A stretch of 40,859 nt of DNA, from positions 1 through 40,859 of the forward strand of contig VGIW01000022.1 of assembly GCA_016867715.1 (NCBI GenBank), written 5' to 3'. Every line of letters begins with the position of its first letter. Within the stretch, counting starts at the first letter, position 1. The notes beneath the pieces are model-generated. The model saw nothing but the letters and a program-made list of their open reading frames with translations, was not told where the DNA came from and made no database searches. Position numbers and translations under genes: made by a program. Positions 4,929-36,755 of this stretch are shown here, piece after piece. The stretch is from Candidatus Eisenbacteria bacterium. Its GTDB lineage: Bacteria > Orphanbacterota > Orphanbacteria > Orphanbacterales > Orphanbacteraceae.

Positions 4929-7022
4929 ATGACGACGAACACCGATCGGGTCCGCAACATCGGGATCAGCGCTCACATCGACTCGGGGAAGACCACGCTC
5001 ACCGAGCGGATCCTCTACTACACCAAGCGCATCCACGAGATGCACGAGGTGAACGGGAAGGACGGCGTCGGGGCCACGATGGACTCGATGGAGCTCGAGC
5101 GGGAGCGCGGGATCACCATCCAGGCGGCGGCGACGAACGTCCGCTGGGCGGGCCGGCAGATCAACCTCATCGACACGCCGGGCCATGTCGACTTCACGAT
5201 CGAGGTCGAGCGCGCGCTTCGCGTTCTCGACGGCGCGGTGCTCGTCCTCTGCGCCGTCGCGGGGGTCCAATCTCAATCGATCACCGTCGACCGCCAGATG
5301 CGGCGCTACGGCGTCCCGCGCATCGCCTTCGTCAACAAGTGCGATCGCTCGGGGGCGGATCCGAGGCGCGTGGCCGAGCAGCTCCGCTCGAAGCTCGGCC
5401 ACAACGCCGTTCTCCTTCAGCTCCCGATCGGTTTGGAAGTGAATCATCGCGGTCTTATTGATCTTGTCTCGATGAAGGCGGTCTCTTTCGACGGCGAGCG
5501 CGGCGAGATCGTGCGCGAGGAAGAGATCCCGGCGGAAGTTCGCAAGGAAGCCGAGGCAGCACGCGAGAAGATGATCGACGACGTCTCGCATTTCTCCGAG
5601 GAACTCACGATCGCCGCCCTCGAGGATCGCGTCGGCGAAGAGCTGATTCATGAAGCGATCCGCCGCGGAACGCTCGCGATGAAGATGACGCCGGTTCTTC
5701 TCGGATCCGCCTACAAGAACAAGGGGATCCAGAAGCTCCTCGACGCGGTGGTCCGCTACCTCCCCACCCCCACGGACATTCGGAACGAAGCGCTCTCCCT
5801 CGACTCGCCGGTGGAACGGATCACCCTCTCGAACTCGCGCGAGGACCCCTTTCTCGCCCTCGCGTTCAAGCTCGAGGATCGGCCGTACGGGCAGCTCACC
5901 TACGTCCGCATCTATCAGGGCGTCCTCCGGAAGGGGGATAGCGCGGTCAACACGCGCACGAACCGAAAGGTCCGCATCGGGCGGATCGCGCGGATGCACG
6001 CCGACGAGATGGAAGACATCGGCGAGGCGGAGGCCGGGGACATCGTCGCGCTCTTCGGAATCGACTGCGCCTCCGGCGACACGCTTGCCGCCGAGGGCTA
6101 TCGGTACAGTCTCCTCTCCATGCACGTCCCAGATCCGGTCGTCTCACTCGCGGTGCGGGCGAAAGACCGCGATTCCCTCGACCGGCTCGCGCGCGCGCTT
6201 CTTCGCTTCACCCGCGAGGACCCCACCTTCCGGGCGCGCGTCGACGAGGAGAGCGGAGAGACGGTGATCTCCGGGATGGGCGAGCTGCACCTGGAGGTTT
6301 ATGTCGAAAGGATGCGGCGCGAGTATCAGGTCGAGACGGAGACGGGCCAGCCGCAGGTGGCCTATCGCGAGACGATCACCGCGAAGACGGATTTCGACTA
6401 CACGCACCGGAAGCAGACCGGAGGAGCGGGTCAGTACGGACGTGTGCAAGGCGCGATCGAGCCGGCGCCCGGAACGGAGTTCGAGTTCGTAAACGCCGTG
6501 CGCGGGGGGAACATCCCCTCCGAGTTCATCCCGGCGTGCGAGAAGGGATTCCGAGCGGAGACGGCCGAGGGCCGCCTCGTCGGCTTCCCGGTCACCGGAA
6601 TCCGCGTGACCCTCTCCGACGGCGCGCACCACAGCGTCGACTCATCCGAGATGGCCTTCCAGGCCGCCGCGCGCGGCGCGTTTCGCGAGGCTTACCCCCG
6701 CGCGAAGCCGATCCTTCTCGAGCCGATCATGAACGTCTCCGTGGAGGGGCCGGCCGAGTTCCAGGGAGAGATGCTGCGCACGCTCCTTCAGCGGCGGGGC
6801 GTCATCATCGGCACCACGGACGAGAACGAGTTCGTGCGGATCGACGCCGAGGTTCCGCTCGCCGAGATGTTCGGATACGTCACCTCGCTCCGATCCGCCA
6901 CTCAGGGAAAGGCGGAGTTCACGATGGAGTTTGCGCGCTACGCGCCGGTCCCGAGGGAGATCGCCGAGAAGCGCATCGAGGAGCTTCGGAAGAAGAAGGA
7001 GGGGAAGACGCATGTACCGTAA
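4929..7022 (+). CDS. fusA: Translation elongation factor G, mtEFG1/spdEFG1-like subfamily
   Basis: GTPase that moves tRNA and mRNA through the ribosome. The 697-residue protein is full length. It has P-loop AHIDSGKT (15-22), switch segment RGITI (60-64), DTPGH (82-86) and NKCD (136-139), then the usual domains II-V ending in a Lys-rich tail. The P-loop spelling and the [20 protein letters not shown] segment match mitochondrial EF-G1 and spirochaete/planctomycete spdEFG1 better than canonical bacterial EF-G. In those lineages this paralog is known as a dedicated translocase, with a second EF-G handling ribosome recycling. ATG 4929 starts at the conserved N-terminus; upstream GAGACGAGAG is only a weak ribosome-binding site. 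The last 11 nt overlap the next gene, so the two are probably co-translated. Confidence 0.96.
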
Positions 7023-32172: not shown

Positions 32173-32697
32173 TCAGGCTTCCGGATCGTGCCAGTAGACG
32201 CTGATCCGGCTGATTCGACCGCCGCCTGAATCGCATGCTTCGAAGGCGAGGGTGCTGTTCCCTCGTTCGTAGCGATACGTGCTCTCGGAGGGGCCTGCCG
32301 CGGGAGGTCCGAACACCTCAAGCAGATCGCAGAGACGTTTGCCGACAAAGTCGAGGAGCGGCTCGGAGACGCCGCGCGTCGCGAGGAATCTCTTCAGCTC
32401 TCGGCCGTCGCTCTCAGCGTCGGCGAGAACGGAGACGTACGTGATCCGCTCGGACTCCGTGTCGCAAATCACGCCGATGCTCTCGGAGCGGGTTCCATCC
32501 ACGCGGTAGCAGACAAGGACTCGACTGGTCTCCTCGTCGACGTGAATCCGGTCGCGATGCGCGGCTCCGAGAAGAGCGAAGAGACGCTCCCGCGTGTCTC
32601 CCGGCTCGAGACCGATGAACCGCCGACCTTTCATCATCGCGACCCCGCCCGAGCCCTCGACCCGCCCGGCGCCCGGCTCGTTGTCAGACCTCTTCAT
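32173..32697 (-). CDS. Small unknown protein, possibly a BamE/SmpA-like fold
   Basis: A 174-residue protein with no signal peptide or membrane segment. FIGLEPGDTRERLFALLGAAH, followed by alternating strands (RVLVCYRVDG, ESIGVICDTESERITYVSV), loosely resembles the helix-hairpin plus sheet of BamE/SmpA-type domains; this is a guess from pattern. Start choice is uncertain: ATG 32697 has TGAGGCGG close upstream, and ATG 32637 (MMKGRRF) is an alternative. Codon use fits its neighbours. It lies 90 nt before the aminotransferase and 119 nt after the Lon-like/FG-GAP gene, so it may belong to either unit. Confidence 0.6.
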   Translation of the reverse strand: MKRSDNEPGAGRVEGSGGVAMMKGRRFIGLEPGDTRERLFALLGAAHRDRIHVDEETSRVLVCYRVDGTRSESIGVICDTESERITYVSVLADAESDGRELKRFLATRGVSEPLLDFVGKRLCDLLEVFGPPAAGPSESTYRYERGNSTLAFEACDSGGGRISRISVYWHDPEA

Positions 32698-32816
32698 CCG
32701 CCTCACATGCTCTCCCGCGCATCCTGGAAAAGGAATAGGCTCCGAGCAAACGCTCTTCAGAAAGAAAGACGGAGCCGGAAGAGGGAAGCGTACCGCGGGC
32801 CGCGGAAGGCAGGCGC

Positions 32817-34982
32817 TCAATTCGAAACAGACGGCCGCCTGTCGATCGGACGCCACCCTTCGGCGGTGAGGAAGCGGGTCTCACACGCGAGCCGTTCGCT
32901 CTCAACATCGAGGTCCGCTTCGACCGCGTCGGGATGACTCTTGAAGATCAACCGGCGGAACGAGTCCGTAAACTGGACGCTCTCCAGAGACGGACGACTC
33001 GGCTCCGAGAAGTCGCACGCATAGAGAATGCTCCTCAAGGTCACTTCCCCCGCTTCCCCCCCGCCCTCCACGAAGATGCGGAAGACGCCGGGTCGATCCT
33101 CGACGACTTTCAGCACGTGCGCGCGCGTGTGAGAGAAGGCGTCGAGCGGGAAACGGATCGAAACGACGACTCCTTGGTCCCGGCTCTCCGGGTCCGTCAG
33201 CGACGGAATCTCGCCCGCAAACCGCGGTCCTTCCGGCAAGGAGAGCCGGGAAGAGCGGATCAGCGAGAGGAGTCCCATTCCCGTTTCGTTGTCCGTCCCG
33301 CATAAGAAAGCCGCCGGATCTCGGTCGACCGCTGCGGGATACACGCCCTCGATGTGCCCTTCGTTCCGCAGCATGCCGAGATGCTCTCCCGTCGCTCCGT
33401 CGATCCGATCGACGAAGCTGAGCGCGCGCAGCGGAACTTTGCGCAGCGTGAGGAGAGTCAGCGAACCGCCTTGCCGTTCCCCGGAATAGAAAGCGAGCCA
33501 CTGGAGTTCCTCGCAAGGAGCCGTCGGCGGGAAACCGAAGGAAGCCGCCGAATGCTCCCACCGCCGCGTCCCATTTCGGTCGAACGCGGCGAGGAGGTCG
33601 GTCTTGGTGGGGTTTCCTCGGTACATCGCCACGACCTCGTTCTTCCCGTCCCCGTCGAGATCCAAGACGGCGAGTCGCGTTCCGATCTTGTCGAAGGTGC
33701 AGCTCTCGACCATCTCCGGGCGCATGAGGCGGCCTTCGAGAACCGCCGTGTCCCTTCCGTGCGTGTTCGTGGCGACGATTCGATTCCCCTCCCATCGCGC
33801 GGTGACCGGGAGGTTTCTCTCAAAGACGAATTGTTGAACGATCAAAAATCCGAGAAGAGGAACGGCGAGCGCCGCGATGCCGACGAGAAGCGGGCTCATC
33901 GGGAAGCGCTTCGCCGCGGCGGCCGCTCTCTCCCGCACGTTCCTCGGCGCGGCCTCGACCGCATCCGGATCTCTCCAAAGCCCGGAGAGCGTCGAAACGC
34001 CGCGCACGCGAAGATGACGATTCGGATGCCGCTCCTCGATCACGCGGGCGGTTCTCTCCGCTTCCCCGAGCTGCTCCGCCGGCACGAAAAGCGCGTCAAC
34101 CGGACCGTGAAAGCACGCGGAGACTTTGGCGGCGAGCGTTCCCTCGTCGACCGGACCGACGCGGTCTCCCTCGACGACGCCGGTGAAAGCGGTCCGCGGC
34201 CGCACTCGCCCGCGCAAGGAGCCGACCCCGAGGGCGGAGTAGGCGGAAGCGCCGGCGAGGAAGAGGCCAAGCTCCGCGCTCCGTCCCTCGAGGCTCGCGG
34301 CGGCTTCGTCCCAATCGACGCGAAAGAGACACCTGCGAAGAGGCGGAACCGATCGGATTCCGAGCGAAGGGATCTGCGCGAAGACCTCGCGAAGCTCGCG
34401 CTCGCGCTGGCCGGGCACGCCCCGAAGGATGACCGGAGCGCTCCCCGGCGTGGTCCGAAGCATCCCCTCGACTCGAACCGTGATCGGAACGAGAAGACCG
34501 CAAGCGATGCCGCGGAAAAGGGGAGAGAGAGCCTCCGCGCCGCGCACCGAGGCGACGACGGGGACGAGGACGCGTTCCTCGAACCCACCGCGCGCGGAGA
34601 ACGCGGGAACGGTCCCGGTCCCCTTCCGCGATTGTGACGCGTCTCGCTCCGCGGCTTCGAACGCTTGCGCGGCTTCTTCGAGATCGCGCCTCCATCTTGC
34701 CTCCGCGGCGTGAGACGGGACCGGCCGCTTCCGGATCTCCTCGAGAACACGCCGGATCTCGTCCAGGGAGTCGCCCGAGAAGAGATGCGCCGGCGAGGAG
34801 GCAAGCGCCGAGGCGAGACCTTGCGCCGCGCGGAAACCGTATGCGCTCCACGTGGTCGCTCCGAGCGGGAAGACCGCGGCGAGAAAACGCGCCCGAAGGA
34901 GAAGAGCAATTGCGGGAGGCTGCCCGATCGCGAGGAGTTCCTCGACCTCCGCGTAGGCCTCGTGAACCTCCCTCGGATTCAT
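32817..34982 (-). CDS. Lon-protease-like (S16) domain - transmembrane helix - FG-GAP-like protein
   Basis: 721 residues. The N-terminal ~200 are helical. Residues ~225-335 follow the Lon/RadA ribosomal-S5-like domain. The sequence GRSAELGLFLAGAS aligns with the catalytic Ser loop of Lon (Ser235), and RTAFTGVVEGDRVGPV then an Ala/Lys helix align with TGE..GxVLPIGG. The catalytic Lys position appears to be Thr282, so peptidase activity is doubtful. A single transmembrane helix spans ~362-386 (PLLVGIAALAVPLLGFLIV). The C-terminal ~335 residues form a beta-rich, probably extracytoplasmic domain with an FG-GAP-like loop LDLDGDGKNEVVAMY (440-454). The start is ATG 34982. It is the third gene of an operon with a zinc-finger protein and an unknown protein. 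The architecture is new to me. Confidence 0.8.
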   Translation of the reverse strand: MNPREVHEAYAEVEELLAIGQPPAIALLLRARFLAAVFPLGATTWSAYGFRAAQGLASALASSPAHLFSGDSLDEIRRVLEEIRKRPVPSHAAEARWRRDLEEAAQAFEAAERDASQSRKGTGTVPAFSARGGFEERVLVPVVASVRGAEALSPLFRGIACGLLVPITVRVEGMLRTTPGSAPVILRGVPGQRERELREVFAQIPSLGIRSVPPLRRCLFRVDWDEAAASLEGRSAELGLFLAGASAYSALGVGSLRGRVRPRTAFTGVVEGDRVGPVDEGTLAAKVSACFHGPVDALFVPAEQLGEAERTARVIEERHPNRHLRVRGVSTLSGLWRDPDAVEAAPRNVRERAAAAAKRFPMSPLLVGIAALAVPLLGFLIVQQFVFERNLPVTARWEGNRIVATNTHGRDTAVLEGRLMRPEMVESCTFDKIGTRLAVLDLDGDGKNEVVAMYRGNPTKTDLLAAFDRNGTRRWEHSAASFGFPPTAPCEELQWLAFYSGERQGGSLTLLTLRKVPLRALSFVDRIDGATGEHLGMLRNEGHIEGVYPAAVDRDPAAFLCGTDNETGMGLLSLIRSSRLSLPEGPRFAGEIPSLTDPESRDQGVVVSIRFPLDAFSHTRAHVLKVVEDRPGVFRIFVEGGGEAGEVTLRSILYACDFSEPSRPSLESVQFTDSFRRLIFKSHPDAVEADLDVESERLACETRFLTAEGWRPIDRRPSVSN

Positions 34983-35013
34983 GCGGGCCCCCGCCTCGGC
35001 TTCGTGCGGCCGA

Positions 35014-35604
35014 TCAAGGAAGCACAAGTTGGATCCGACCGGACGGGATCTCGGAGAGGACCGCGTGCCCCGACTCGTCGAAGGGGACCTCTCCGCCCTC
35101 GAAGCGGAGAAGCGCGCGGCGATGCGATTCCTCCTCCCCGCCGGCGAGAAGAACCGCTGTTCGACCCGCTCCGCTCTCGTTCGTGAAGACGCGCACGAGG
35201 TAGAGACCGTCGCGGCTCGCGAACGAGCGGACCGCGCTCCCCTCGGCGCGGTCCGGACCTTCCGATGCGGGAGTCGCGTGTCGCGCGGCGAGGGAATAGG
35301 CGCCTTCGCGGTCCGGAGGTCCGACCCGGCGGGAGGGCCTCTCGGAGATCTCCTCCAACTCGATGACGTTCGGTCCGGGCGGAGCGGCGGCGAGAGCGGG
35401 GGAGATGTACTCCGCGGCCTCGGCGAGAACGCGGCGCTCCGTCTCGAGAAAGAGGGAGAGGAGATCGCCGCAGCGGAAGCACTCCCTCGCGTGATCGAGA
35501 AAGGCGGAGAGGTCGCTCGGGAGGCTTGTCTCACCCGACGCCTCCGCCGCCGCCCGGAGGATCGCCGCCCGCTCGATCCGTTCCTCGTCCCAACACCCGT
35601 TCAT
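35014..35604 (-). CDS. Zinc-finger (ZAS, H-x3-C-x2-C) anti-sigma-like protein
   Basis: A 196-residue protein. FLDHARECFRCGDLLSLFLE contains H38-x3-C42-x2-C45, the zinc-binding signature of ZAS-type anti-sigma factors. Unlike many of these it has no transmembrane segment. The C-terminal third (GLYLVRVFTNESGAGRTAVLL, then RALLRFEGGEVPFDESGHA) looks like a small beta-sandwich domain. Its ATG overlaps the upstream gene by 4 nt (ATGA), and the next gene starts 31 nt after its stop, so the three are almost certainly co-expressed. In typical systems a ZAS protein binds an ECF sigma factor encoded beside it; here the upstream gene is not a recognisable sigma factor. Confidence 0.78.
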   Translation of the reverse strand: MNGCWDEERIERAAILRAAAEASGETSLPSDLSAFLDHARECFRCGDLLSLFLETERRVLAEAAEYISPALAAAPPGPNVIELEEISERPSRRVGPPDREGAYSLAARHATPASEGPDRAEGSAVRSFASRDGLYLVRVFTNESGAGRTAVLLAGGEEESHRRALLRFEGGEVPFDESGHAVLSEIPSGRIQLVLP

Positions 35605-36755
35605 TTCGACCTCAAGGAAGTTCGTTCGCCCCTCATCGCGAGCCACCCGCGCAAGCGGCGCACCGTGTAGTCCAAACGTCTCTGATAGAGATCGCGATAG
35701 AGATCCTCGGTCACCCCGGGGAGAACTTCGCCGACGAGGCCCTTCTGCGAAAGCCCCGACCAGTACGGCCGCCCCATCCCGAAATCGCGGCAGACCATCT
35801 CCGCAGCGATCTCGGAAAGCGCGCCGAGACGGCCGTCGACGGGCGGGATGAAGGGCTTCCGCTCGTCCGCTTCCAGATAGAGACGCGCCTTCGCCTCGAC
35901 GGTCCGGACAACTCTTTCGACGAACAGCGACTCGGGGAGCCCTCCGCGCGCGAGGCGGACCTCGAGCGCCTGAGGAAGCGCGCCGGTTCGCTCGCCCGGA
36001 TGCGCCATCTTTTCGGTCGCGAGGGCATGAAACGCGCGCACGAGATCGAGAAGAAAGACGTAGCCTCCGTGCTCCTCGCAGGGAGCGAGGCCCGTTTCCA
36101 GGACGCGGACCGCGTCCCTTTCGTCTCGGCACCCCGCGCCGAGGAGATCGAGCACCTCCTCGGAGGAGACAGGACGGCGGCGAAGATCCGCCGAAGATCC
36201 CGCGACGATCCATCCGCGCGTGTCGCGAAGAAGCGCGAGCGCGCGGCTCGCCTCGATGTGGACGCGGAAGCGCCTCCAGACGCCGGCACACTCCCGGTTC
36301 CTCTCCTTCCACTCCGCATGCAACGCTTGCCGGCCAAGGCGCCGGAGGAGCGCGCGGAGAAGAAGCGCGAGGTCTTCATCGCGGGCGGCGCGCACCCATT
36401 CCGCGAAGGCCAGCGGCGGCTCCGAGACCTTTTCTCCGTTTCCCTCTCGCGCGCGCCGCACACCCTCAAGTCCCCTCGCGAGAAACGGGTAGGAGGATCC
36501 CCCCCCTCGCCGCTCCCGAAGGAGAAGGCTCACCGCGCGATCAGCGGCCCCGTCGACCGCATCGAGGAACTCCCCGCGAAAGAGATACGCCCAACCTCTT
36601 CGGTTCGACCTGAGGAACGATCGGAGATACTGGAGAGAGAACCGCGCGAAATCCTCGCGAGCGATCGTGGAGGGGTGAAGAAACAGCGCCCGGAGGAGCG
36701 CCGCCGAATCGCGCTCGAATCCGGACGGTCCCTGGCCGCGCGCCGACACGTTCAT
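35601..36755 (-). CDS. Unknown helical protein heading the ZAS / Lon-like operon
   Basis: 384 residues, predicted almost entirely helical, Arg/Leu-rich, without signal peptide or membrane segment. I do not recognise it. The N-terminal part (FARFSLQYLRSFLRSNRRGW, EFLDAVDGAADRAVSLLLR) could be compared with sigma-factor region 2. Its position directly upstream of a ZAS-type anti-sigma protein would fit a very divergent sigma factor, but I cannot see region 4. The start is ATG 36755, with GGAG 5 nt upstream (an upstream in-frame codon at 36782 is less likely). The last 4 nt overlap the next start (ATGA). Confidence 0.7.
   Translation of the reverse strand: MNVSARGQGPSGFERDSAALLRALFLHPSTIAREDFARFSLQYLRSFLRSNRRGWAYLFRGEFLDAVDGAADRAVSLLLRERRGGGSSYPFLARGLEGVRRAREGNGEKVSEPPLAFAEWVRAARDEDLALLLRALLRRLGRQALHAEWKERNRECAGVWRRFRVHIEASRALALLRDTRGWIVAGSSADLRRRPVSSEEVLDLLGAGCRDERDAVRVLETGLAPCEEHGGYVFLLDLVRAFHALATEKMAHPGERTGALPQALEVRLARGGLPESLFVERVVRTVEAKARLYLEADERKPFIPPVDGRLGALSEIAAEMVCRDFGMGRPYWSGLSQKGLVGEVLPGVTEDLYRDLYQRRLDYTVRRLRGWLAMRGERTSLRSK

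Follow-up and report, generated by a model that had tools for sequence, protein, structure and literature searches.

A conserved three-gene module of a putative promoter-specificity factor, a zinc anti-sigma-like protein and a Lon-like membrane protein

What might three tightly linked genes do together if the second encodes a small zinc protein resembling the inhibitors of sigma factors, the third a membrane protein with a Lon-like domain and the first a protein of a new family? The genes, which we refer to as A, B and C, lie in a stretch of 40,859 nucleotides (the "window"; contig VGIW01000022.1 of assembly GCA_016867715.1) from the 3.5 Mb genome of a Candidatus Eisenbacteria bacterium, whose family is represented by seven genomes in the collection. 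They run head to tail on the minus strand, the strand of all the features located below: gene A (35601..36755) encodes an all-helical protein of 384 aa, gene B (35014..35604) a soluble protein of 196 aa and gene C (32817..34982) a protein of 721 aa. The TGA stop codon of A overlaps the start of B as ATGA and 31 nt separate B from C, an arrangement that confirms the tight unit recognized in the first-pass annotation of this DNA. A gene for an S49 peptidase lies upstream of the trio, and genes for a 154-aa protein and a class IV aminotransferase lie downstream.

The assignment of B as a zinc anti-sigma-like protein, which had been made for the window from its letters alone, holds for the family. 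The zinc motif HxxxCxxC (H38-C45, HARECFRC, 35470..35493) is present in the window's B and in 32 of 33 members, the members tested have no transmembrane segment, and the C-terminal half is conserved and, as read from the sequence, of the beta type. Pfam gave no match for the window's B, and anti-sigma models were matched weakly by two members, in genomes G293 and G177. That B binds and inhibits a sigma factor is suggested by its place beside a genuine ECF sigma gene in G293 and in another genome, G002.

Protein C is predicted to consist of a helical N-terminus, a Lon-like (S16) peptidase domain (about residues 205-340; 33963..34370), one transmembrane helix (residues 364-387; 33822..33893) with basic residues on its N-terminal, cytosolic side, and an extracytoplasmic region resembling a beta-propeller or FG-GAP protein (residues about 393-715; 32838..33806). 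For the window's C, Pfam returned no match above its cut-off to the Lon-like domain and a weak FG-GAP match under the cut-off (E 0.004); the homologue in G002 matches Lon_C (1.7e-7) and that in G154 matches FG-GAP_3 (1e-8), both above the cut-off. The family profile of C matches Lon proteases in other genomes and solved Lon domains in the PDB (best 1.7e-5; MtaLonC 2.9e-5), and alignment with canonical Lon puts Ser235 (codon 34278-34280) and Lys286 (34125-34127) on the catalytic dyad. These candidate dyad residues are kept in 47 of 47 genuine members, and the G-x-S and TG motifs around them in all or nearly all of the 47, at an overall identity below 20%; the preservation of the dyad argues, on sequence grounds, that C is catalytic. 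No AAA+ domain was detected by Pfam in any C scanned. There is one strong transmembrane segment in C, and since its N-terminal side is richer in basic residues in every member, the Lon-like part should be cytosolic. In the structure model the outer part comes out as beta-rich at good confidence and resembles propellers of solved structure (best E 2e-5); the model is poor over the Lon region. Together with the Lon profile matches and the dyad, the single membrane helix and the propeller-like model bear out the initial description of C as Lon-like inside and FG-GAP-like outside. Three matches to the C profile (L179, L180 and L181) were removed because they look like histidine kinases (NLIRNGVEAVE, DNGIGMDE); they share an FG-GAP-like outer region with C.

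Conservation of the trio had been proposed as a check, and single-protein and profile searches show it to be extensive. Within the window's genus we found a paralogue that is 41-44% identical and has the order A-B-C, and a split orthologue at 70-77%; within the same family, genome G005 carries the trio in the order A-C-B. The C profile reached further phyla (G177, with A-B-C, G303, G154 and G293), and in the phylum of G303 it found strong matches in 40 of 133 genomes, a few of which are not true C. All 30 loci of that phylum with enough flank hold A, B and C in order, as do G177, G001 and the window, so that the ordered trio recurs across three phyla, far above chance. A adjoins the zinc protein B in all readable A-type loci, with C between them in G005. 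Viral contigs gave no match to A. One genome, G514, carries four A-B-C modules (L153, L162, L163 and L169) with both classes of A described below, and its -35-like boxes, where the element was found, differ between modules.

In two genomes the place of A is taken by a genuine ECF sigma factor, in the order sigma-B-C in G293 and C-sigma-B in G002. Profiles built from A-type loci only, with the ECF-type loci left out, match the B proteins of these two genomes (4e-22 and 1e-12, respectively) as well as their C proteins (1.5e-40 and 1.6e-21), from which it follows that A and an ECF sigma factor are alternative occupants of one slot. In G002, the C homologue that adjoins the sigma gene (L025, contig C51, 4203-6395) has an in-frame TAA near position 5722, in the propeller region, which might reflect a degraded gene or a sequencing error.

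The A proteins themselves constitute one homologous family of more than 30 loci, in which a main and a second class align at 99.7% probability. Their length of 350-390 aa is far above that of the neighbouring ECF proteins, and the members scanned have no sequence match in Pfam, NCBIfam or the PDB, sigma models included. Homology to ECF sigma factors was tried with hhalign, for whole proteins and by region, and rejected, the scores being no better than those of reversed or column-shuffled controls; there was a weak C-terminal signal (2% probability), and sigma regions 2 and 4 were undetected by profile. A helix with the pattern DLAxDxL resembles sigma region 2.2 by eye, a similarity that was not significant when tested. 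A fold search with the AlphaFold model of A, which was built from three sequences and is too uncertain (pLDDT 62), found no match. Since significant sigma similarity is lacking and this low-confidence model gave no fold match, the word "sigma" is applied to A by inference only. Distant matches to A in G252 and G190 were dismissed as chance, as their loci are those of HEAT-repeat and ribosomal proteins. The sole match from PADLOC, a weak one (0.0017), was in one second-class A, which lends no support to a role in defence.

A further clue to what A might do lies on the 3' side of C. Most A-type loci carry, after the C stop codon, the sequence TTTTC(T/C/G)ACAAA-N15-CTATT with a spacing of exactly 15 bases; for most members it can be written TTTTCTACAAA-N15-CTATT. 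When spacings from 8 to 23 were scanned, 21 of 41 loci scored at least 13/16 at spacing 15 and at most 8 did so at any other spacing, and 23 of the 41 beat dinucleotide shuffles at p<0.01. Among the 24 main-class loci, the information content per position is 1.27 and 1.48 bits for the two boxes but 0.14-0.20 for the flanks, and position 12 of the spacer, four bases 5' of the -10-like box, is always G. The second class has TTTTCTGCA where the main class has TTTTCTACA, and in genomes with several modules the -35-like box tracks the subclass of A: ACAAA accompanies main A and GCA second-class A. Where a genome has two kinds of A, as G423 does at loci L150 and L173, each comes with its own kind of element. 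The loci used to test the consensus are those in which it had first been spotted by eye, a circularity that the spacing control, leave-one-out scoring and genome-wide search lessen and do not remove.

Allowing one mismatch at most, the pattern occurs 25 times in 41 genomes; about 14 of these occurrences lie at the module, among them all five perfect matches. A reversed control pattern totals about 28, so matches elsewhere are taken as background. Leave-one-out matrices recover about 26 elements, to be read against 8 scores above the same threshold in reversed sequences, so that single weak matches mean little. Extra copies precede B, a second D-like gene (G427) or an ECF sigma gene (G461), the letter D being used for the next same-strand gene after the module. 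No such element was detected 3' of C in the ECF-type loci or 3' of B in G005. The window's copy, CTTTCTGAAGA-N15-CTATT, lies 3' of the C stop codon at 32734..32764 (-35-like box 32754-32764, -10-like box 32734-32738); written in full as CTTTCTGAAGA-GCGTTTGCTCGGAGC-CTATT (32764..32734), it scores 12/16 (p 0.01) and has the spacing of 15 and the spacer G. It scores weakly with the main-class matrix (3.8 bits), which could be as expected for a diverged A, and the same-genus orthologue L022 keeps this block inside a less conserved region.

The idea that the first gene encodes a divergent sigma-like factor thus fares unevenly: the replacement of A by an ECF sigma factor in G293 and G002 and the dedicated bipartite element give it strong, if indirect, support, and the want of significant sigma similarity, and of a fold match for the low-confidence model, speaks against it. 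Upstream of A, the element is absent, giving no sign of autoregulation, and a comparison within loci of the regions upstream of A and of D found no similarity (p 0.48), so that A is apparently not transcribed from the promoter of D. Many of the regions upstream of A show instead a sigma70-like TTGACA-N17-TATAAT, 14 of 25 scoring at least 9/12, compared with 20% of shuffles.

In most loci the product of gene D is secreted and ends in a tail of the FlgD_ig/type IX-like kind or in a dockerin (about 27 of some 36 readable loci by our own count). Genomes that have such tails have 46-131 of them, G177 yielded none, and in only 2 loci does a tail protein lie directly upstream. The D proteins share these tails and differ in their N-terminal domains. 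In the window, the gene in the D position (32173..32637) is the likely target by virtue of its place after the promoter-like element; it encodes the 154-aa protein mentioned above, which is 75% identical in the same-genus orthologous locus and, unlike D elsewhere, has no signal peptide as judged by eye. By eye this protein is possibly BamE/SmpA-like, and it has no library match. At L160/L201 (G427, contig C156), D is followed at once by a second, near-identical element and then by another gene on the same strand, as though D and its promoter had been duplicated. At L194 and L196 (G462 and G461) an ECF sigma gene follows D, and in G461 a strong copy of the element precedes it (L196:2908-2938), which suggests a cascade.

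The reading that we put forward, at even chances, is that A, B and C form a transmembrane switch of the sigma/anti-sigma type, with C as the receptor and A firing the adjacent promoter of D. The propeller of C would receive a signal outside the membrane while the soluble zinc anti-sigma B holds A inactive; once C is engaged, its Lon-like domain would cut or degrade B, or pull it off A, and the freed A would direct RNA polymerase to the dedicated promoter just 3' of C, from which the neighbouring gene D is driven. We infer the individual steps (that the signal is extracellular, that C cleaves B, that B inhibits A and that A reads the element) and, with them, the control of an inside regulator by binding outside, as the first-pass annotation envisaged. 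Lon-like proteins lacking an ATPase may not act on folded substrates. MtaLonC is able to degrade unfolded proteins without ATP (PMC3391209), and by this analogy C could conceivably act on a small zinc protein like B. A bolder form of the proposal, possible but clearly at less than even chances, is that the A family represents a new class of promoter-specificity factors, either non-homologous to sigma70-type factors or diverged from them past recognition, which has taken over the ECF slot, with each copy dedicated to one adjacent promoter and governed by a receptor in the membrane that proteolyses the anti-sigma through its cytosolic Lon-like domain.

Several other explanations might account for the same module. 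The Lon-like domain might be a non-proteolytic scaffold, a ligand outside altering the grip of C on B and the partners being exchanged; direct partner switching is common among anti-sigma systems and C was found to have no AAA+ unfoldase, but the Ser-Lys dyad and its G-x-S and TG motifs, kept through so much divergence, speak against a scaffold, and we think this rather improbable. Alternatively, A might be a DNA-binding activator or repressor that works with a housekeeping sigma factor and is not itself a sigma factor. Such a role would suit a protein without sigma similarity by profile or fold and much longer than the neighbouring ECF proteins; it accords poorly with an element whose two boxes are unlike each other, form no palindrome, keep a constant -35/-10-like distance and come with a G like that of an extended -10, and with the exchange of A for a real ECF sigma factor beside homologous B and C, and on this evidence we regard it as unlikely.

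The element might also belong to D and be read by a sigma factor encoded elsewhere, with A an adaptor or a substrate of C and its link to the element one of neighbourhood only. These genomes do encode many other ECF sigma factors. Yet within each genome the element occurs almost exclusively at the module, it is missing from the ECF-type modules, and its -35-like box follows the subclass of A in multi-module genomes, which together make this explanation very unlikely. The suggestion that the trio is an undescribed transmembrane signalling module is well supported; a clear unrelated fold for A, a trio that is not conserved and a lack of the Lon-like fold in structure models had been named as findings that would count against it, and none of them was made.

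In relation to known systems, the module is close to the pairs of ECF sigma factors and class I zinc anti-sigmas (ZAS, ASDI), in which a small HxxxCxxC protein is likewise ATGA-coupled beside a transcription factor gene; the modules of G293 and G002 have a true ECF sigma factor in that position. It differs from them in that A is not recognizable as an ECF sigma factor and the membrane sensor is a separate Lon-like protein, not the tail of an anti-sigma. Soluble anti-sigmas make up about 35% of those known and are enriched in zinc motifs (PMC7406223). C resembles LonC/MtaLonC in having a Lon-like domain with a Ser-Lys dyad and no ATPase function, but its helical N-terminus differs, it is anchored in the membrane with a propeller on the outer side, and its gene is a fixed partner of A and B in one operon; LonA and LonB have in the same chain the AAA+ ATPase domain that C lacks in our scans. 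The nearest functional analogue is SigI/RsgI of cellulolytic clostridia, where an alternative sigma factor under a surface-sensing partner switches on secreted, partly dockerin-bearing proteins (PMC4711584, PMC6056542). Each A-B-C module, by comparison, apparently serves one adjacent promoter. RsgI carries the sensor within the anti-sigma itself, whereas here the inhibitor and the receptor are separate and the receptor has a Lon-like domain.

The module is not described in the literature searched for these domain combinations, nor is it named in the curated family libraries searched. It would contribute a signalling design with a Lon-type protease-like protein as the extracellular sensor and a soluble zinc anti-sigma as its target, together with a family of factors that the curated libraries used do not recognize and that apparently defines its own promoter. 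The predicted promoter, predicted inhibitor and two predicted catalytic residues make the proposed chain directly testable in a laboratory host, and the module also offers a way to find the signals that control secreted surface proteins in uncultured phyla.
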